A DNA stretch of 21,665 bases. Source: a virus. The DNA is taken from positions 1 through 21,665 of IMG/VR virus record IMGVR_UViG_3300042349_000503. One strand, given 5' to 3'. Under the pieces are notes generated by a model, which ran no database searches, was not told the origin of the DNA, and saw only the letters and a list, made by a program, of their open reading frames with translations. The position numbers and the translations under genes are program-made. This document shows, one piece after another, positions 6,711-21,589 of the stretch. Each line of letters starts with the position of its first letter. Positions within the stretch are counted from its first letter, which is position 1.

Positions 6711-7708
6711 AATCCCGTGTAGTACCCTTTTTTCTGTTCGTCCGGCATAATTGGTGGCACATCGGCAGTGCCTATCTCATCGCTCCCCTCATATCCTTCA
6801 AAATCATCGGCATTGGTCTTCAGGTAGCTGGCCAGCTCCTCCCACAGCCGCTGCGCATGCTGCTTATGCTGCAGTACCAGCCGGTGCTCCGGACCTTCGG
6901 CAAGGTTCGTAGTCTGCCGCGGCTCATTGCTGTTGCGCTCAAATCGCTGGTAGGTACCGCGCTCATCCACCACAATGCTCAGTGGCACCACGCATTCGGT
7001 GAACGTCTGGCACGCCACCGCCCGCTGAATGTATTTCAGCAGCTTCTCCTCCGGCTCGGTGAGCTCTCCGTCATGGTACCGGGCTGAAAACCCAATGTAG
7101 TACTCCAGTCCAAGCACCTTACTCAGTGTCATGCGCTGCACACTGAGCATATAGTCGCGCATCAGCTCCAGCACATGCCATCCCACACGCACACCAATCA
7201 GTCCGGCATTGAATTGTTTGGGTGTAAATACCAGTGATTCCCGCCGCTCTGCCCGCTCATCGCTGTCTGCGTAGTCGGTGAACTCATCCAGATTGCTCTC
7301 CAGGTATTCAGTCAGCTGGTCAATGCCGATCTGCATGCTCAGGTGAAGCTGATTCTTCAGCTCCTCTATCCTGCTCATGCTCGCCACCGCTTTATTCTCG
7401 GCTGAATTCACGGTAAATCCACCGGCAGACACACCCACATTGAGCACAGCAATACTGTGGATGAAAGCAGCGTGCGCAAGCACGTACTGGCAATGCTTCA
7501 CCAGCTGCGCCATCGGCTCGCTGAGCGCTTCATCTTCGCTCAAAGCCTCCAGCATAGCATCCAGTGTATCCTTTCCTACAATGCGCTGGATAGTGCTCAC
7601 CTGCTCCTGCTTAATCATCGGCCGCAGGCCATCAAAATTCAGCGCAAGTGGAGTAGTCAGGTGATTGCTCACCTCCCGCATATCCTGGAGTAGTAGTTCC
7701 CGTGCCAT
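6707..7708 (-). CDS. Head-tail connector-like protein (DUF6712-like), function unproven
   Basis: This 333-residue, mostly helical protein begins MARELLLQDMREVSNHLTTP. Phages of Bacteroidota often carry a protein of this kind beside the portal gene, and I tentatively relate it to DUF6712 from memory. A tail of low complexity and acidic character (NADDFEGYEGSDEIG) precedes the C-terminus. Its ATG overlaps the portal stop by one base (TAATG), so the two are translationally coupled. The position suggests an adaptor joining the capsid vertex and the tail. No catalytic motif is seen. Confidence 0.6.
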   Translation of the reverse strand: MARELLLQDMREVSNHLTTPLALNFDGLRPMIKQEQVSTIQRIVGKDTLDAMLEALSEDEALSEPMAQLVKHCQYVLAHAAFIHSIAVLNVGVSAGGFTVNSAENKAVASMSRIEELKNQLHLSMQIGIDQLTEYLESNLDEFTDYADSDERAERRESLVFTPKQFNAGLIGVRVGWHVLELMRDYMLSVQRMTLSKVLGLEYYIGFSARYHDGELTEPEEKLLKYIQRAVACQTFTECVVPLSIVVDERGTYQRFERNSNEPRQTTNLAEGPEHRLVLQHKQHAQRLWEELASYLKTNADDFEGYEGSDEIGTADVPPIMPDEQKKGYYTGL

Positions 7709-9063
7709 TATTCTGCAGCTGGTAATTCGCCTTTCGGCTTGGTTGCTTCACTTCCCTTGTCCAGTGTAGTGATCAGGCTGTTGCGCATCTTAAAAATCAG
7801 CCCACTTGGCCACTTATTGATGCGCTTCACCAAGCTCATCACACTCAGCAGTTCCTCCTGGCGGAAATGGCTCAGCGCCACCCGCTGATTGAATGCCACA
7901 CGGTTCGCGCTGCCGCTTCCCGCGCCCATTTTGCTGCCCGGGGCATTGCCGATCAGCTCCGGGTGAATGCCCAAGGCACTCAGCATGTGGTCAGAGCTCT
8001 CATTGCTCTCCTTCATCCAGTGCCCATCACCCACAATATTCTTCAGCTCATTGATCTTGACCAGACTCACCAGATTTTCATACCCCACCTTGCTTTCCAG
8101 AAACTCGGAGAAGTAGGTAGCGCCCTGCTTATCGGTACCCTGCAGGAACTTTACAATGTTATCTACCTCCTCGCTCTTCTTGTTCTTCTTCTCCTCATCA
8201 GTCAAGCGATTCCACGTATCCCGCCCGTACCGTGCAAGCCAGTATTCCGGATGAAATTCAATGTGGTACTTGATACCAAACTGATTCTTCATCCAAAAGA
8301 GCTTGCTTTCAGCAATCGCTTTGCTCAGGTCATACCATCCGGCTTCCACAGAAGCCATCCAGTCCGGCCGGTTGTAATACTGACGGCCCAAATCAGGCAC
8401 CCGCAGTATCATCCCGAAGCTCTTTGTATTTCTGAGCTTATCAATCGCGTCATTGTCAATGTACAGAGGAGCAATCTTCAGCTTACTGGTTCCTTCTTCT
8501 TTGTAGTCGCCCGTTCCAAAGTCCGCATTCAGGTGCACCTGTGGAATATTTCCCTGCGCATCGCGCCGCTCCATGCGTATCCACTGCGCGCGGGTAAGCT
8601 CCGTAGTAAGTCGGGCAATCTTCGTTTTGTCCTTACTCCACACCAGCTGCGGCACAGCAAAACCAAAGGTCTCCATGTCAATCAGCGCACACATCAGCTG
8701 CATGTGAATGCGGTTAGTCTCCAGCCACTCATCCACTTCCGGGATCGCCTCTGGAGAAAACCATTCATTCTCTCCCTCCACCTTGCGATATCCGTACACA
8801 ATTCCACCGGCATACTGCAATCCCGCATTGAATCGGATACCCGGCATGATCACAGTGCTCTGCTCGGCCAATTCGGCCATTGTCTTCAGCTCATTGTCAC
8901 CTGCGCCGTTCAGTATGTAATCCTTGGTGCTGCTGTGCTCCTCTTTCCTGCTGTTATGGCTGACCAAAGCCGAGCGCCCAAGGCTTACAGGCAACTTATC
9001 CTCGCCCAGAAACACACTGGTGCTCAGTCCCGGCCACTCAAATGTTACTATCTCCTCAGCCAT
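7708..9063 (-). CDS. Phage portal protein
   Basis: This 451-residue protein forms the dodecameric ring at one capsid vertex through which DNA is packaged and ejected. The diagnostic part is residues 357-400: SSDHMLSALGIHPELIGNAP followed by a Gly/Ser/Ala stretch and a helix ending in ALSHFRQEELL. This matches the conserved stem and crown region of portals, in which a candidate 'LGI.P.L.G' motif precedes a long helix. Earlier parts contain several Trp-rich segments (about 235-280). It follows a small gene with an 8-bp overlap. The length is normal for a portal. Confidence 0.8.
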   Translation of the reverse strand: MAEEIVTFEWPGLSTSVFLGEDKLPVSLGRSALVSHNSRKEEHSSTKDYILNGAGDNELKTMAELAEQSTVIMPGIRFNAGLQYAGGIVYGYRKVEGENEWFSPEAIPEVDEWLETNRIHMQLMCALIDMETFGFAVPQLVWSKDKTKIARLTTELTRAQWIRMERRDAQGNIPQVHLNADFGTGDYKEEGTSKLKIAPLYIDNDAIDKLRNTKSFGMILRVPDLGRQYYNRPDWMASVEAGWYDLSKAIAESKLFWMKNQFGIKYHIEFHPEYWLARYGRDTWNRLTDEEKKNKKSEEVDNIVKFLQGTDKQGATYFSEFLESKVGYENLVSLVKINELKNIVGDGHWMKESNESSDHMLSALGIHPELIGNAPGSKMGAGSGSANRVAFNQRVALSHFRQEELLSVMSLVKRINKWPSGLIFKMRNSLITTLDKGSEATKPKGELPAAE

Positions 9064-9546: not shown

Positions 9547-11187
9547 TTACAGATCGAAGCGATCAGCGAGCGAACCATAGATCAGGATGTCTCCTGCATC
9601 GGAGTAGTGAGTAGCGCGCTCGTAGGCTCCTGTGTACTTGGCCTTTCGCTCATTGCGTTTGTCTTTCTCGTATCCTTTGCTGGTTCGTCTCACAGCTGCG
9701 AGCATGCAGCTGTTCGCCCAAAACTCTGCATTGATACGATTGTAGAGGAAACTCACTCTGTCGTTACGAAGCACTTTGTTCCATAGTTCGAACCTTGCTT
9801 GATAGCTTGGTGTGTGACCTATGTAGCGCATGTCCACATTCCAGCTTCCACCTTGCTTATCCCTCAGCAGCTCCTCTACTTCCTCGAAGTAATTGTATGG
9901 AGTAGATGCATTCGAGAACTTAGCTGTGTGGTCATAGTAGAATCTTACATACTTGTCTCTGTGGTATCGGTAGTAGTGCTTGAACTTCAGTATCAGGTCA
10001 CGTAACATCATCGGGTGACGCACGTGTAGAGCATTGACCAGTCTGTACACATTGCCATTGCCTTGACCAATTACAATACAGTTGAACTGCGCATTGTAGT
10101 CAACTGATATCTCCAGCGGCATATCAGGATCCACATCTGCATCCTGCCTGCTGTCGGTGTCTGATCCATAACTCAAGTCATTACCCAGGCTATCCAGAAA
10201 CCCGTTATCAAATCCATCATAGCCATGGATGTGCTCCTTCAGCAAAGGATAGAACCCATTGACCACATTGCGCTTCCTTTGATTCAGCAGACTGGTGGCA
10301 TACTCCTCCGGACTCATCTCATCCATGGAGTTTATGAAGTAGTCTGCCCCCAGTATGTCCAGATTCTCCAAACTGCTGGCCTCTTGAAAATAGAATAGCG
10401 GCTTCTCCTTCTTGGTAAGGTCACCACATCGGATGCGATGGAGCGCCCGGCTGCATAAGCTCACCACCTCTCTGGCGTTCTTATGCTGTGACTTTCTGGA
10501 TTCATCGCGCAGGATAGCCATCTTCTCAGCTCTTTCCTGCTCCAGCATGACAACCTGTGCTACACGCTCCTGCATTTCTTTGGTGTAGCGGTTATCCCCT
10601 TCTTCAATCAGCCATTGAGCAGCATCACTCACCGGCATGTCGGTGGTCAGCAGTGTGCTCTGGTAACTGGATGCAGAGCCAAACACATGATTCATCCCGC
10701 GCAGGATGGGTATAACCTCGCTCTTGTGACTCTCTCGCTTCAGGTACTTGGCCTCATCACCAAACACAGCGCAAGCGGATATCCCGTTTGCGGATCCCGG
10801 ACGGTCATGGGACACCAGTACAATGCCAGCACCGGTCTTCAGGTGAATGAAGTATTCCGGCTTCAGTGGTGTAATGAATGGCCGGTCCCACTTCCATGCA
10901 TCCGGAGCATAACGGCCAAAGAAGTAATCCCGGCCATTCACCCACCCCCACTTCTCCATTCCGGAGAAGATGGCTGGCAATGTCCTGGTAAGGTGCTGCT
11001 GGTAGGTAGCGGCTTCACCTACAATGAGCCCGCGCGGCATTTCAGTGGCCCAGCGGATGATGCGTGGAGCGATGATGCCCTCACTTTTTCCGGTACCGCG
11101 GCCCGCGATTGTAATCTCATGCTTTGCTGCGATCAGGTAGCTGCGGGCCTGAACCGGGTTCAAATACAGATCAGGCTTCTGATTCAT
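9547..11187 (-). CDS. terL: Terminase large subunit
   Basis: This 546-residue protein is the DNA packaging motor and nuclease. The ATPase half shows Walker A at 28-35 (AGRGTGKS) and Walker B ending in the acidic pair Asp144-Glu145 (SACAVFGDEA). The C-terminal RNase H-like nuclease shows Asp363 (ISVDYNAQFN), Asp419 (YYDHTAKF) and the final Asp530/Asp533 pair (THYSDAGD), so all expected catalytic acidic residues are present. Length and domain order are normal. It overlaps the upstream gene by 17 bp, which supports that gene being the small subunit. Confidence 0.95.
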   Translation of the reverse strand: MNQKPDLYLNPVQARSYLIAAKHEITIAGRGTGKSEGIIAPRIIRWATEMPRGLIVGEAATYQQHLTRTLPAIFSGMEKWGWVNGRDYFFGRYAPDAWKWDRPFITPLKPEYFIHLKTGAGIVLVSHDRPGSANGISACAVFGDEAKYLKRESHKSEVIPILRGMNHVFGSASSYQSTLLTTDMPVSDAAQWLIEEGDNRYTKEMQERVAQVVMLEQERAEKMAILRDESRKSQHKNAREVVSLCSRALHRIRCGDLTKKEKPLFYFQEASSLENLDILGADYFINSMDEMSPEEYATSLLNQRKRNVVNGFYPLLKEHIHGYDGFDNGFLDSLGNDLSYGSDTDSRQDADVDPDMPLEISVDYNAQFNCIVIGQGNGNVYRLVNALHVRHPMMLRDLILKFKHYYRYHRDKYVRFYYDHTAKFSNASTPYNYFEEVEELLRDKQGGSWNVDMRYIGHTPSYQARFELWNKVLRNDRVSFLYNRINAEFWANSCMLAAVRRTSKGYEKDKRNERKAKYTGAYERATHYSDAGDILIYGSLADRFDL

Positions 11188-14786: not shown

Positions 14787-16175
14787 TTAATTGATTTTTG
14801 AATCCACACCTTTATAGAAGTTCTCCAGCTCCGGATTGCCCGCAGTTTTGCCAGCTGCTGATTCCGCTTCTGTTTCGGTAGTCGTTACCTCTGCCTCACC
14901 CGGAGCGCCACCGAGATCTGCCACTTGTGATTCCAGCTCGGTGATGCGTGCATCGCGAGTGGAAATAGTGCTCTGCGCCTCAGTCAGCTCAGCACGAAGC
15001 TGAGTGATGCCGGCAGTAATGCCTTCAGCGGTCGCTTCTTCAGCTCCCGCATCAGTGGCAATGGCCTGCAGCGTATCGGCATGGGTCTGGGAAGCAGAGC
15101 GCAGTGCATTCAACTCCTCCACAGACAGAATCACCGCGCCCTGCACACCCATTTCTTTCAAATAGGCATTTGCTTCCGCAACAGCCTCAGTTGATGGCGT
15201 GCCTTCTCCGGCAAGCGCCTTGATTTTTTTCGGTTCGAACATTTCAGTGGTATTGAATTGGCCACTTGTGCGGCCGGATTTTGCTTCTTTGTCGTCTGCC
15301 AGCTCCATTGCGCGGCTCACAGTATCTTCCCATGACTTCAGGCCATCAATCAGGCCCATCTCCAGCGCCTCATCAGCCATGAAGAGCTTGCCGGTGAATA
15401 CTGCCTCCTTCACACCCGGACGGTTCTGCTTCACCGTATTGATGAACACATCATTGAACGGGTCCAGATCATTCTGGAGCAAATACTCAGTGCTGGATTT
15501 TTCGGCAAAAGCATCGCGGTAGCCTTTATTCTTCTCCGTGCTCTTGGTGGCATACACCTGCACTACATCAGTTTCATAGAAGTTCGCGATGAACTTCTCA
15601 TAGTTCACCATGGTGATGTATGTACCAATGCTGCCAATCTGGTCAGTGGAGAAAGTAGCGTAGAGCTCATCGGCATTGCTGGCAATCCAGTAAGCGGCAC
15701 TGGCTGTCATCCCGTTTCCGAGATACGCCACTACCGGCTTCTTTTTACGCGCTTCCTGAATGGCAGCGCTCGGCGCCTGCACAGCGTCCGCCGATCCGCC
15801 TGGTGAGTCCAAGTCAAGAATGATCGCACCTACAGATGGGTCATTCGCAGCCTGAAGGATCTGTGAAGTTTTCGACTCAGTGCCTTCAGGTCCGCATTCT
15901 TCATTGTACTTGATGATAGGATCCTTGAATTCTATCACAGCCACCACGGCTTCTTTTCTCTTTGACTTGCTGTGATCAGAGTATGACTTACGTTCTCCTG
16001 ATTCGGGAATCACATAGAAGTTAAGATGGTCAGGAGTTTTTTCCACTCCATCATCCTTCTCAAAAGAAGCACGCCCGGTAAGCAGCGCATGAGCCAGTGG
16101 CAAATAGCCAGCAGCGGCACCCGGCTCCATCAGCCATTTGCCGCCCATCAAGTTCTTTGCAATGTTCCTGCTCAC
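14787..16175 (-). CDS. Capsid maturation protease (S49, ClpP/SppA-like) fused to scaffold-like C-terminus
   Basis: The 462-residue protein begins at GTG 16175; an ATG at 16148 is an alternative. Residues 75-300 form an S49 peptidase: IILDLDSPGG at 118-127 lines the active site, the nucleophile is Ser159 in GMTASAAYW and the general base is probably Lys211 in YATKSTEKNKG. Residues 310-462 are acidic, helical and contain a coiled coil (LRAELTEAQSTISTRDARIT), like an internal scaffold that the protease removes after shell assembly. It is immediately upstream of the major capsid gene and has its own promoter element. Confidence 0.88.
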   Translation of the reverse strand: MSRNIAKNLMGGKWLMEPGAAAGYLPLAHALLTGRASFEKDDGVEKTPDHLNFYVIPESGERKSYSDHSKSKRKEAVVAVIEFKDPIIKYNEECGPEGTESKTSQILQAANDPSVGAIILDLDSPGGSADAVQAPSAAIQEARKKKPVVAYLGNGMTASAAYWIASNADELYATFSTDQIGSIGTYITMVNYEKFIANFYETDVVQVYATKSTEKNKGYRDAFAEKSSTEYLLQNDLDPFNDVFINTVKQNRPGVKEAVFTGKLFMADEALEMGLIDGLKSWEDTVSRAMELADDKEAKSGRTSGQFNTTEMFEPKKIKALAGEGTPSTEAVAEANAYLKEMGVQGAVILSVEELNALRSASQTHADTLQAIATDAGAEEATAEGITAGITQLRAELTEAQSTISTRDARITELESQVADLGGAPGEAEVTTTETEAESAAGKTAGNPELENFYKGVDSKIN

Positions 16176-17924: not shown

Positions 17925-18221
17925 TCATCTCCATGTTCCGGATACATTCTCTTGAGGATTAGTCTGCTTCCAAACACCCCCGGCGTTTAGCCATGTGATG
18001 ACCTCTTTCCAAGTGCCGGCAACCTTAAACCACATTTGGTTGCCTGCACTCAGAGGGGCTTGGATGAAGCCAATCAGGGTGAATACGACATTGGTGGGTA
18101 GGGCCGTGACGTTCTTGGACACCACTACCTCCGCACTCACAAACCCCTGCACGGGGTTGGCCGTGCCGGTGTCGCGCACCAGAACGGCTTCACCACCGCC
18201 GAAGGTTAGTTGGTAACTCAT
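17925..18221 (-). CDS. Small tail-fibre-associated protein with W-K repeat motifs
   Basis: This 98-residue protein begins MSYQLTFGGGEAVLVRDTGT. Its C-terminal half carries three short motifs of the form G-x-W-(K/R): KVAGTWKEV, AGGVWKQ and SGTWR. Such motifs are frequent at the ends of phage tail fibre and tail spike proteins, where they make short beta repeats. The ATG overlaps the upstream fibre stop as ATGA, so the two are coupled. It may be a fibre tip, a fibre chaperone or an adhesin accessory. Confidence 0.6.
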   Translation of the reverse strand: MSYQLTFGGGEAVLVRDTGTANPVQGFVSAEVVVSKNVTALPTNVVFTLIGFIQAPLSAGNQMWFKVAGTWKEVITWLNAGGVWKQTNPQENVSGTWR

Positions 18222-20362
18222 GACACGATGATCTTTGCATATAAGTCAACCGAGCCAGGGAGCGATCCGGTTGGCACAAATCTCCTTCGCGTGCCTACTA
18301 CATTGCTGCCGAGGCCTGCCGCCCATGCCGAACCTGTCCAATACTCGAAAGCTCCATTGGTCGTGCCTGTCGATGCCTGAGTAAGCACAAGTGCATTCGT
18401 ATCAGCCCGGTAAATCTCAATCGTATGGATCGTGGGTGAGCCAGCGAAGAGTGCTGATTGAACCCATGCGAATGTGCCATTAGAGGTATTGAAGTCGGAG
18501 TAATTCCAACGGTACTGACTGGGTAGAGCGTCATCAGTTTCGTACACGAGAGCCAGCGCGAGCACGCGAGCTGGTAGCATAACGACCCCTGCTGTGCGGA
18601 ATTGAAACGCGAATTGAATTTCGCTTGGCGTGCCGAGTCCAGATAGGTCGCCATCTTGCGGAACGTCTGTCCATGAGCCTGAGTTATCGGATATGCCTGA
18701 GGTGCGTACCTGAATCCTGAACATATCCGGAGCAACGCCCATTGTGAGATCACCGAGATTCTGCACGTCATTGGCCAATACGCGGTATAACTTGGCAGGC
18801 GTCGAACCGAGGTTGATTGCAGGGCATATTACCCTGTTATTCACGTCGGCCTGGAAGTCCAAATCAGCTGCCAAAGGATATGCGCTGAAGGCATTCAAGT
18901 TAGCGGTAGCTGCTGTTGAATAAATCCAAAACATCCATCCATCTTCGACCCAAAGAAATGGAGAGTTTGTCGTCACGAAGTGAATCCAAACCGGGCTATC
19001 GCTGTCACGAAGCGAGCTAATCATTTGGGAAGTGGCTGAGCCTGAGCGCCTGTCAATCTGCACTGAGGTAGTATAGTAATCAGTAATGTAGATGGATTCA
19101 GCTGTGCTTGCTGTTCCGATAATAACCAGCTTGTCAAGTGATACAGATATGTCCAGCCCTGTTATTGATCCGAAAGATACATTTGTCTCTGTGCCACCCG
19201 GAGGCACTTCAATCATTGTATCGCTCACGAACGTAGTATTACCTGAAGTGATATTGGTAATTGCTACCCGGATTATTCGGGTAGTGGTGAACAGGTATAT
19301 GGATGGCACACCATTGCCTGCGCCATGATTGAGCGTACCCACCCGACCATTGTTGTTCTGCGACAAGGTTCCCGTCACTGATTGAGCGCCAGTGATCAAA
19401 ATATCAGTTCCGGTAAGCGTGAAGCCTCCCGATACAGGGGTGAGTGCTGCGCGGATATTGTAGCGGTATATCACCAGCGATGAGGCAGCGCCATTCGTGC
19501 AATATACGTACTGCTGCTGCCTGTTGTCGAGGTCGCCGAGAGCGCATCCGCCTATTGCTGTATTGGTAATTGTAGCCGCGTCACGCAGCCAATACACCGC
19601 CTTGACGCGATCAGTAGTACTGGCTGTTCCAATGTTTTGGGTTGGATTTTGAAAGTCGTTATATGATAACCCCTTAACCACGAATAATCCACCATTTGTC
19701 GCAGTGGCGTTGGTCGTGGCCTGAACGATCATCAAATCTTGAATGACGTAGGGAGTGCCTGAGTTTATTGCTCCAGCGGAAGTGTTGATGGTTATACTGG
19801 TATCACTTCCAATGGCAGTGATGTGATACCATGTGGTGATATCGTTGGGGTCAGTTGAACCAAATCCGATGCGACTTCCCACGCAAAGACGGTCGGTATT
19901 GAACGCTGTGCCCGATCCTGCTACGGCTGTTCCCGATACACCTACTGTGCCTTTAGTGTAATTATCGAGGACAGCACGAATGCCCCTGACCGTGTGAGCA
20001 GTGGCAGTGGGAAACCCGCAGTTAATTGCACCAACGAGGTTATAGGTGTTGGTTGATGGTACGAATGTCCAAAGCTGAACCCGTCGTGTCGTTGCTGCTG
20101 TAGCTCCGTCCGCACCGAACACCCAGTACAAGTCATCAGTAATCTTAATCGGGTGAAGCATGTGTGACGGAATTGCAAGTGAACTCTGGCCCATATTTGC
20201 AATTCCAACAGGAGCAGGACCGATAAACTTATCAGCCTGACCCGACCCGAGGTTAAACTGCCCTGTGTGTTTACCGCGATTGATCTTGGCTGGATCATAC
20301 GCGCCACCAAAGGCCACTTGTTCAAGTGAACCGTTGAATATCTGTTCTACAGCTGCTTTCAT
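18218..20362 (-). CDS. Large tail-fibre-like or surface-exposed structural protein
   Basis: This 714-residue protein is Ser/Thr/Gly/Ala-rich, low in Lys and Cys, and strongly beta-rich, like fibre or spike proteins that recognise host surfaces. Residues 138-210 (GTVGVSGTAVAGSGTAFNTD, then TTWYHITAIGSDTSITI) form a module seen in many phage fibre proteins. Repeated short blades (for example YWVFGADG, SIYLFTTTRI, IYITDYYTT) suggest a beta-propeller-like centre. It follows the collagen-like gene with two bases between and overlaps the next gene as ATGA. The receptor-binding role is inferred. Confidence 0.65.
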   Translation of the reverse strand: MKAAVEQIFNGSLEQVAFGGAYDPAKINRGKHTGQFNLGSGQADKFIGPAPVGIANMGQSSLAIPSHMLHPIKITDDLYWVFGADGATAATTRRVQLWTFVPSTNTYNLVGAINCGFPTATAHTVRGIRAVLDNYTKGTVGVSGTAVAGSGTAFNTDRLCVGSRIGFGSTDPNDITTWYHITAIGSDTSITINTSAGAINSGTPYVIQDLMIVQATTNATATNGGLFVVKGLSYNDFQNPTQNIGTASTTDRVKAVYWLRDAATITNTAIGGCALGDLDNRQQQYVYCTNGAASSLVIYRYNIRAALTPVSGGFTLTGTDILITGAQSVTGTLSQNNNGRVGTLNHGAGNGVPSIYLFTTTRIIRVAITNITSGNTTFVSDTMIEVPPGGTETNVSFGSITGLDISVSLDKLVIIGTASTAESIYITDYYTTSVQIDRRSGSATSQMISSLRDSDSPVWIHFVTTNSPFLWVEDGWMFWIYSTAATANLNAFSAYPLAADLDFQADVNNRVICPAINLGSTPAKLYRVLANDVQNLGDLTMGVAPDMFRIQVRTSGISDNSGSWTDVPQDGDLSGLGTPSEIQFAFQFRTAGVVMLPARVLALALVYETDDALPSQYRWNYSDFNTSNGTFAWVQSALFAGSPTIHTIEIYRADTNALVLTQASTGTTNGAFEYWTGSAWAAGLGSNVVGTRRRFVPTGSLPGSVDLYAKIIVS

Positions 20363-20364
20363 GA

Positions 20365-20967
20365 TTATGTGTATTGAAGGTAGATATCACCGTCATTACC
20401 GCCCGAGGGAGGCTCTGTGCCGGATGTTATGTTGCGTATCGTCGGCTTATTCCTAATGAACGAAGGATCGTTTTCGTCCGTCTCGTTCCAGTTCACCTGC
20501 TGCTGAAGTCCTGCTGGCCCCTCCGGACCAGCAGGACCTTCCGGGCCGGTTAATCCCTGCGGGCCTTGTGGACCAGTATCACCTTGTGGGCCTTGTGGGC
20601 CAGTCAGTCCCTGAGTTCCTGCCGGGCCTGCTGGCCCTGCTGGCCCTGCCGGGCCTTCCGGACCAGTCAGTCCCTGTGGGCCTTCAGGACCTTGCGGACC
20701 TTGTGGGCCTTGTGGGCCTTCTGGACCTTGTGGTCCGGCCGGACCTTGCAGGCCTTGTGGACCAGTCAGTCCCTGCGGTCCTGCCGGGCCTGCTGGCCCT
20801 GCTGGCCCTGCCGGGCCTTCCGGACCAGCGGGACCCTCAGGGCCTTGCGGGCCGGTCTCACCTTGAGGGCCGGGGGGTCCTTCATTCCCCGGTCCCGTAA
20901 CTGACGGACGTACAACAAAAAACTCTATGCCCGAACCTACTGTAATGGATACCCTTATCTCACTCAT
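20365..20967 (-). CDS. Collagen-like tail fibre protein
   Basis: This 200-residue protein contains 42 uninterrupted Gly-X-Y triplets from Gly30 to residue 155, rich in GPA, GPQ, GPE and GLT, which should form a collagen triple helix. The N-terminal 29 residues ([20 protein letters not shown]) probably attach it to the tail. After the helix, [18 protein letters not shown] is a motif common in fibre proteins of Bacteroidota phages, and the end ([12 protein letters not shown]) may trimerise or bind the next protein. Its ATG forms ATGA with the upstream stop. The repeat DNA includes a 162-bp offset duplication. Confidence 0.88.
20617..20828 (-). repeat. Direct repeat inside the collagen gene (50-bp identical arms)
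   Basis: A 50-bp stretch at 20617-20666 recurs identically at 20779-20828, an offset of 162 bp or 54 codons. It encodes [16 protein letters not shown] twice. Because the offset is a multiple of nine bases, the Gly-X-Y register is kept. It points to duplication within the fibre and possible length variation. Confidence 0.85.
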
Positions 20968-21338
20968 GCCGTAGTCAGTTTACTTGGGTAGAGATAAAAC
21001 ACATTTGGGTATTCCCCCATCCGGTGAGTCTGGTTTTCAGGGAAACCATTTATTTCTGACTTGATTTTGATCTGCAGGTTGTACTCCCCCTCTTCAGCTC
21101 CTTGAGTAGAGGACCGAGGTACCACCACTCGGATCTGTCCCTCCTCATTATCTATCACATCCAATTCAGAGTAACCGATAAGTTCTGGAAATGCAAACCG
21201 AGCGATTACCTTACCGCTCTTTCTGTGCACCACCGCCAGGGTAATGCTTTCTACACTGCTAATGACAATGGCTATCCCCGCACTGTTAAGTACAGTCAGC
21301 CTGATCGGTACATCCTCCCCTTTATAGCATCGTGTCAT
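20964..21338 (-). CDS. Hypothetical beta-rich tail or baseplate adaptor (first gene of late fibre operon)
   Basis: This 124-residue protein starts [20 protein letters not shown]. The alternating pattern ([20 protein letters not shown] then [15 protein letters not shown]) looks like an immunoglobulin-like sandwich similar to the N-terminal domain of upper-baseplate or fibre-anchoring proteins. No membrane segment is present. The ATG at 21338 begins 4 bases after the -7-like box of its promoter element, and the stop overlaps the collagen gene as ATGA. A role in anchoring the collagen-like fibre is plausible. Confidence 0.6.
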
Positions 21339-21342
21339 GGGC

Positions 21343-21378
21343 CAAAAATGTCCAGAGCATGATCAACTTGAAAGGACA
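21343..21378 (-). promoter_or_regulatory. Putative late promoter of the fibre operon (copy 1 of the shared element)
   Basis: On the minus strand TGTCCTTTCA is followed by exactly 20 bases and then TTTTTG; the 8-base box reads CATTTTTG. The ATG at 21338 follows after 4 bases, exactly as in the copy at 9324-9359, and the following GGC is shared too. Confidence 0.7.
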
Positions 21379-21442
21379 CCCCCCACCAGCACTATACTAT
21401 TGGAATTTCAGAGCCAAAAACACATTTTTAAAATTGCTCGGC

Positions 21443-21450
21443 CAAAAATA
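21443..21450 (-). promoter_or_regulatory. Perfect TAnnTTTG -7 box beside the iteron array
   Basis: On the minus strand TATTTTTG matches the Bacteroidota -7 consensus exactly. No TTTG is found at the expected -33 position; that place is taken by the AGACA-type repeats (TGTCTNC on the plus strand). This would fit a promoter controlled by a protein bound to the repeats. Confidence 0.45.
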
Positions 21451-21457
21451 TTTCGCA

Positions 21458-21589
21458 TGTCTTCCTGTCTTCTTGTCTGCTAGTTGTCTACCGCTGTCTC
21501 CGTCCTGTCTGCTAGTTGTCTACTGGATTCCTAAGACATTATTAATTGATTTTCATAGTAGTTATCTCAAATAAGAAGACAGGTAGACA
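21458..21589. repeat. Iteron-like array: seven direct and two inverted TGTCTNC copies
   Basis: TGTCTNC begins at 21458, 21466, 21474, 21485, 21495, 21506 and 21517 on the plus strand, with spacings of 8, 8, 11, 10, 11 and 11 bp. Two inverted copies begin at 21575 and 21583. Part of the array is an exact 18-bp direct repeat (TGTCTGCTAGTTGTCTAC at 21474 and 21506). Spacing near one helical turn is typical of operator or replication-origin iterons. Confidence 0.75.

Follow-up and report, generated by a model that had tools for sequence, protein, structure and literature searches.

Repeat array at the contig end

The window analysed here, an IMG/VR fragment of 21,665 bases (record IMGVR_UViG_3300042349_000503, positions 1 to 21,665), carries an array of short repeats at 21458–21589, and its contig ends 76 bp past the array. 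Nine copies of the word TGTCTNC, seven direct and two inverted, are packed there in 132 bp of apparently non-coding DNA. The plus-strand copies start at 21458, 21466, 21474, 21485, 21495, 21506, and 21517, with spacings of 8, 8, 11, 10, 11, and 11 bp; the minus-strand copies are located at 21575 and 21583, and the full spacing series is 8,8,11,10,11,11,58,8. The exact 18-bp repeat TGTCTGCTAGTTGTCTAC occupies 21474–21491 and again 21506–21523. An earlier sequence-only reading had reported the nine copies and the 18-bp repeat, and both were confirmed at their positions. Its description of the spacing as near-helical holds for the middle copies (10–11 bp) but not for the outer ends, where the 8 bp spacing is not helically phased. 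It had also placed no gene in the array; an 80-aa open reading frame (ORF) with a GTG start on the plus strand (21332–21574) does overlap it, opposing the nearby late genes, but this ORF is unsupported as a gene. The array can be divided as follows:

21458..21480, plus strand: outer iteron triplet TGTCTTC, TGTCTTC, TGTCTGC, 8 bp apart; similar outer groups with 7–10 bp spacing occur in relatives
21485..21523, plus strand: inner four iterons TGTCTAC, TGTCTCC, TGTCTGC, TGTCTAC, 10–11 bp apart; similar inner groups (~10 bp) occur in relatives
21524..21574, no strand: AT-rich spacer of 51 bp, 76% A+T, a candidate melting region; nearly all arrays of relatives are A+T-richer than their loci
21532..21538, minus strand: degenerate copy TGTCTTA, a possible tenth site, read from the sequence
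21539..21551, minus strand: site resembling that of the integration host factor (IHF), AATCAATTAATAA, with one mismatch to WATCAANNNNTTR; exact sites are enriched in relatives' arrays
21575..21589, minus strand: outer inverted iteron pair TGTCTTC, TGTCTAC, 8 bp apart; array ends are oppositely oriented in relatives too

That the array is a chance or low-complexity repeat without function is practically out of the question. The window was dinucleotide-shuffled 400 times, and 132 bp of the shuffled sequence never contained more than 3 copies of TGTCTNC, against the 9 observed, nor more than 6 of any gapped 7-mer; in addition, the geometry is conserved in relatives despite their different words. 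The unbiased 7-mer cluster score of the array is −12.8, and the only equally strong repeat cluster elsewhere in the window is a collagen-like coding repeat at 20.5–20.8 kb. The earlier reading had named a single dense cluster of the word as support for a special role, and this is what the 21,665 bases, the part of the genome covered, contain: outside the array, there are 11 further TGTCTNC copies, all single and scattered. Multiple short repeats at roughly helical spacing beyond chance, one mark of an iteron origin read by a primase-helicase, are present in the window array.

The late module of the window lies on the minus strand. It includes a 124-aa ORF, a collagen-like gene, a 714-aa tail-fibre-like protein, an S49 head protease, and a capsid candidate, as well as the terminase large subunit (TerL), the portal, a DUF6712 protein, and a tape measure protein. 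The assignments of TerL and the portal come from tblastn matches to Microcystis phage Mea-Yong924-1 and Polaribacter phage Leef_1. The landmarks used below are:

20964..21338, minus strand: 124-aa ORF with no assigned function, the first late-side gene after the array
14787..16175, minus strand: S49 head maturation protease, late-module landmark, 5.3 kb from the array
9547..11187, minus strand: TerL, with a tblastn match to the TerL of Mea-Yong924-1
7708..9063, minus strand: portal protein, the query for finding relatives

No DNA-level similarity of the window to phages was found, no match to the 18-bp repeat was detected in viral contigs, and the 124-aa ORF and the TerL ORF, each used as a single query, revealed no relatives.

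Arrays beside primase-helicase genes

Among the portal relatives, each of the three complete genomes carries an array built from a word of its own. Scanning the portal relatives for TGTCTNC alone yields no match because their arrays use different words; they have their own 7-bp word in an array designed as in the window. An unbiased 7-mer cluster search was applied to 33 portal-relative genomes, a score of −10 or better being taken as a strong array; the scores of shuffled genomes never passed −9.1. An array was present in 16 of the 18 relatives with a primase-helicase and in 2 of the 15 without it (Fisher p = 1.7e-5). Both landmarks were located in 13 genomes, and in every one the primase comes first, then the array, then the S49 late module, with 1.2–10 kb between array and protease; the window array is on the expected side of S49. 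The preset test of whether related phages carry an array at the same place was answered positively: it lies between the primase and the late module, with different words.

A scan of genome contigs with the S49 protease yielded two loci of Mucilaginibacter metagenome-assembled genomes, both without an array. A Mu-type transposase was considered as an explanation for array-less relatives and dismissed, an rve domain, the sign of the DDE transposase of Mu-like phages, being found in only 1 of the 33 relatives searched. A strong one-orientation array of CGTCCNG (score −16.9) is located at 35511–35661 of the contig of portal relative G076 (L250), in which no primase-helicase was detected.

An independent sample was obtained with the helicase halves of three primases as queries; it comprised 80 loci, 64 of them non-redundant, and overlaps the portal sample in a few genomes (e.g., L341 = G087). 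Arrays were found in 57 of the 64 non-redundant loci, all 3′ of the gene at a median distance of 115 bp (39 within 200 bp), whereas only 2 of 80 portal-flank loci contained one. Among neighbour spacings in the primase-locus arrays, 270 of 486 are 8–12 bp, and 56 of the 57 arrays are A+T-richer than their own locus. The common geometry consists of outer groups at 7–10 bp, an inner group at ~10 bp, and a gap of 40–95 bp; the array ends have opposite orientation in 52 of 56 relatives' arrays, as in the window. Exact IHF-like sites occur in 29 of 70 relatives' arrays, compared with a mean of 2.6 (maximum 8) in shuffled arrays. The word TTGTCTT, which is near that of the window, was found at two primase loci (L311 and L339), and the cultured Flavobacterium phage laban6-1 has eight TCTCAAC words in an array 62 bp 3′ of its primase gene.

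Viral contigs scanned for the pattern contain many TGTCTNC matches, a subset of which are non-coding arrays with copies in both orientations. In L042, L054, L096, L100, L102, and L129, arrays of this type are ~15 bp or less from the 3′ end of VapE/D5-type helicase genes. By a fixed rule, DUF5906 (D5-type helicase) is encoded in 8 of 18 records with mixed-orientation arrays and in 5 of 32 others, a modest difference (p = 0.03); it becomes stronger only in a post hoc regrouping that included one-orientation TGTCTGC arrays, where the counts are 12 of 22 and 1 of 28. Tandem TGTCTGC repeats are present in L051 (1360–1438), L021, L025, and L045, records that encode a D5-type helicase of ~780 aa; those of L051 are non-coding with a period of 12 bp. 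Possibly, these tandem repeats are one-sided origins.

The word, the initiator and the proposed origin

When word similarity was compared with protein distance, the Mantel r was 0.54 for the primase, 0.39 for the portal, 0.34 for TerL, and 0.30 for S49; on 10 common genomes, the word–primase value is 0.71. The partial r on these shared genomes, a small set to which no permutation test of the partial correlation was applied, is 0.59 for the primase given the portal and 0.02 for the portal given the primase; with the primase held constant, the partial r of the word with TerL is −0.01. A natural swap can be seen in G090 and Leef_1, whose portals are 69% identical and primases 16% identical, and whose words differ. 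Judging from these comparisons, the array word follows the primase and not the portal, TerL, or protease. The word itself does not reveal which way the array faces with respect to the primase.

These data also bear on two other roles that the sequence-only reading had offered beside replication, the option now favoured. A small phage regulator binding the array cooperatively could activate the late operon, which is read away from the array, and the array does mark the upstream end of the late genes in the window, and that of the late side in Leef_1 and others. Such a late switch is nevertheless improbable: in the independent sample, arrays follow the 3′ end of the primase gene, mostly no more than 200 bp away, the word tracks the primase rather than late proteins, and most primase-less relatives keep the late module yet lack an array. 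The array had been described as next to the first late promoter, which could not be established, since sigma-70-like promoters nearby are not above chance. A dual role, as origin and late switch, is possible. Terminases can recognise short words repeated next to structural genes, and the array could be a packaging site (cos or pac) for the small terminase. However, TerL is 10 kb from the array in the window, distance between TerL proteins explains no word similarity once the primase is accounted for, and strong arrays are missing from eight primase-less relatives in which TerL and portal were located, which makes this role very unlikely. For Leef_1, cos 3′ ends have been predicted (PMC8776804).

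We infer, from the array and its statistical significance, its position, the geometry conserved while words change, the linkage to the primase-helicase, and the word–primase correlation, all observed directly, that the window array is very probably the core of an iteron-type phage replication origin. The initiator would be a zinc finger/TOPRIM primase fused to a superfamily 3 (SF3)-type AAA+ helicase, expected beyond the contig end, and the window's own initiator presumably belongs to this class. Its C-terminal domain would bind the TGTCTNC words, and with sites 10–11 bp apart, the bound copies would line up along the same side of the DNA. Bending of the AT-rich spacer by an IHF/HU-like protein may bring the oppositely oriented end group to the rest, after which two helicase assemblies would open the spacer and prime replication. 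The cooperative binding proposed earlier fits the phased sites, but the likely binder is this large primase-helicase initiator instead of a small regulator.

Several points weigh against such an origin. The primase-helicase is absent from the window, and the reading frames in the 76 bp past the array are too short to reveal a primase C-terminus. The TGTCTNC word was found in none of the portal relatives examined; G104 has a primase and no clear array, and in G076, an array was found but no primase detected. In the window, the gap from the outer triplet to the inner group is only 11 bp versus the usual 30–65 bp, and the IHF-like site carries one mismatch. GC skew at the arrays shows no consistent switch, and the partial Mantel values have the ten-genome basis given above.

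Comparison with known origins

Iteron plasmid origins (theta-type Rep) combine phased iterons, an AT-rich region, and an IHF-type site. All three are also found in the phage arrays; unlike in these plasmids, the gene linked to the arrays encodes its own primase and helicase. Arrays of short repeats can also serve as centromere-like sites, and a partition site of a plasmid-like prophage might look similar. This is hardly probable, as no ParA/ParB match was found among the window proteins searched and the gene linked to the arrays in relatives is the primase-helicase.

Since a sequence search of the helicase half against PDB gave only ATP-loop matches, folds were compared. The model of the helicase half has a mean predicted local distance difference test score (pLDDT) of 90, and its closest PDB fold is Cch of the staphylococcal cassette chromosome SCCmec (5dgk). 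Other top matches are archaeal MCM, a chelatase AAA+ subunit, and SaPIbov1 Rep (8tch, in the top five), followed by PriRep1 and monkeypox E5. In SaPI (Staphylococcus aureus pathogenicity island) Rep and SCCmec Cch2, the C-terminal domain binds iterons 3′ of their own genes (PMC7581432). The SCCmec system, with its putative origin, resembles the phage arrays in its direct repeats 3′ of a helicase gene, bound there by the C-terminal domain, and Cch is the best structural match; it differs in that the cassette is chromosomal, its three AAGTG iterons are short, and its polymerase-primase is a separate protein.

Origins of phage-inducible chromosomal islands (PICIs), including SaPIs, are likewise located directly 3′ of the initiator gene (SaPIbov1 Rep-ori, EcCICFT073 pri-rep-ori; PMC6092414), and the initiator helicase is structurally similar to the phage helicase half. 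The differences are that the arrays here belong to tailed phages of full size, which encode portal, TerL, and tail proteins of their own, that the phage primase and helicase are fused (as they sometimes are in PICIs), that the phage arrays are enriched in the IHF-like site, and that their words vary widely over a fixed geometry. The window itself was rejected as a PICI/SaPI satellite, which would rely on a helper phage for most virion genes; it encodes a portal, TerL, head protease, and tape measure protein. By analogy, the origin would work like a PICI origin, while the element is not a PICI. The alpha protein of phage P4 consists of a TOPRIM primase plus helicase, and its winged-helix domain binds origin repeats (PMC4234260); the likeness in primase-helicase and origin repeats follows the description in that paper, not sequence.

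It is an even question whether these arrays represent a large family of phage origins that has not been described before. Its geometry would be fixed (outer groups of repeats, a phased inner group, and AT-rich gaps containing IHF-like sites), whereas the 7-bp word would change freely along with the primase-helicase; PICI-type origins would form one branch of it and not be peculiar to satellites, and the word might be a specificity code. No description of this phage family with such origins was found in the limited literature searched. If the family exists, the sharing or blocking of an initiator among phages, satellites, or plasmids could depend on the word. Any 7-mer array of this geometry just 3′ of a primase-helicase provides a word-independent rule for locating origins in uncultured phages, and the paired variation of word and initiator makes the recognition code testable by array swaps between the cultured laban6-1 and Leef_1.

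Tail-fibre and collagen-like genes of the window

The 714-aa tail-fibre-like protein (18218–20362, minus strand) is 63–73% identical in 16 contigs with widely different backbones, and the G+C of these contigs ranges from 0.32 to 0.68 among those measured. This suggests that the gene is a frequently exchanged module. The fibre-gene relatives (L002–L018) have neither D5_N nor any TGTCTNC array and have little in common beyond this gene. The collagen-like gene (20365–20967, minus strand) encodes repeated GXX, and in L008 and L017, similar repeats directly precede the fibre gene.
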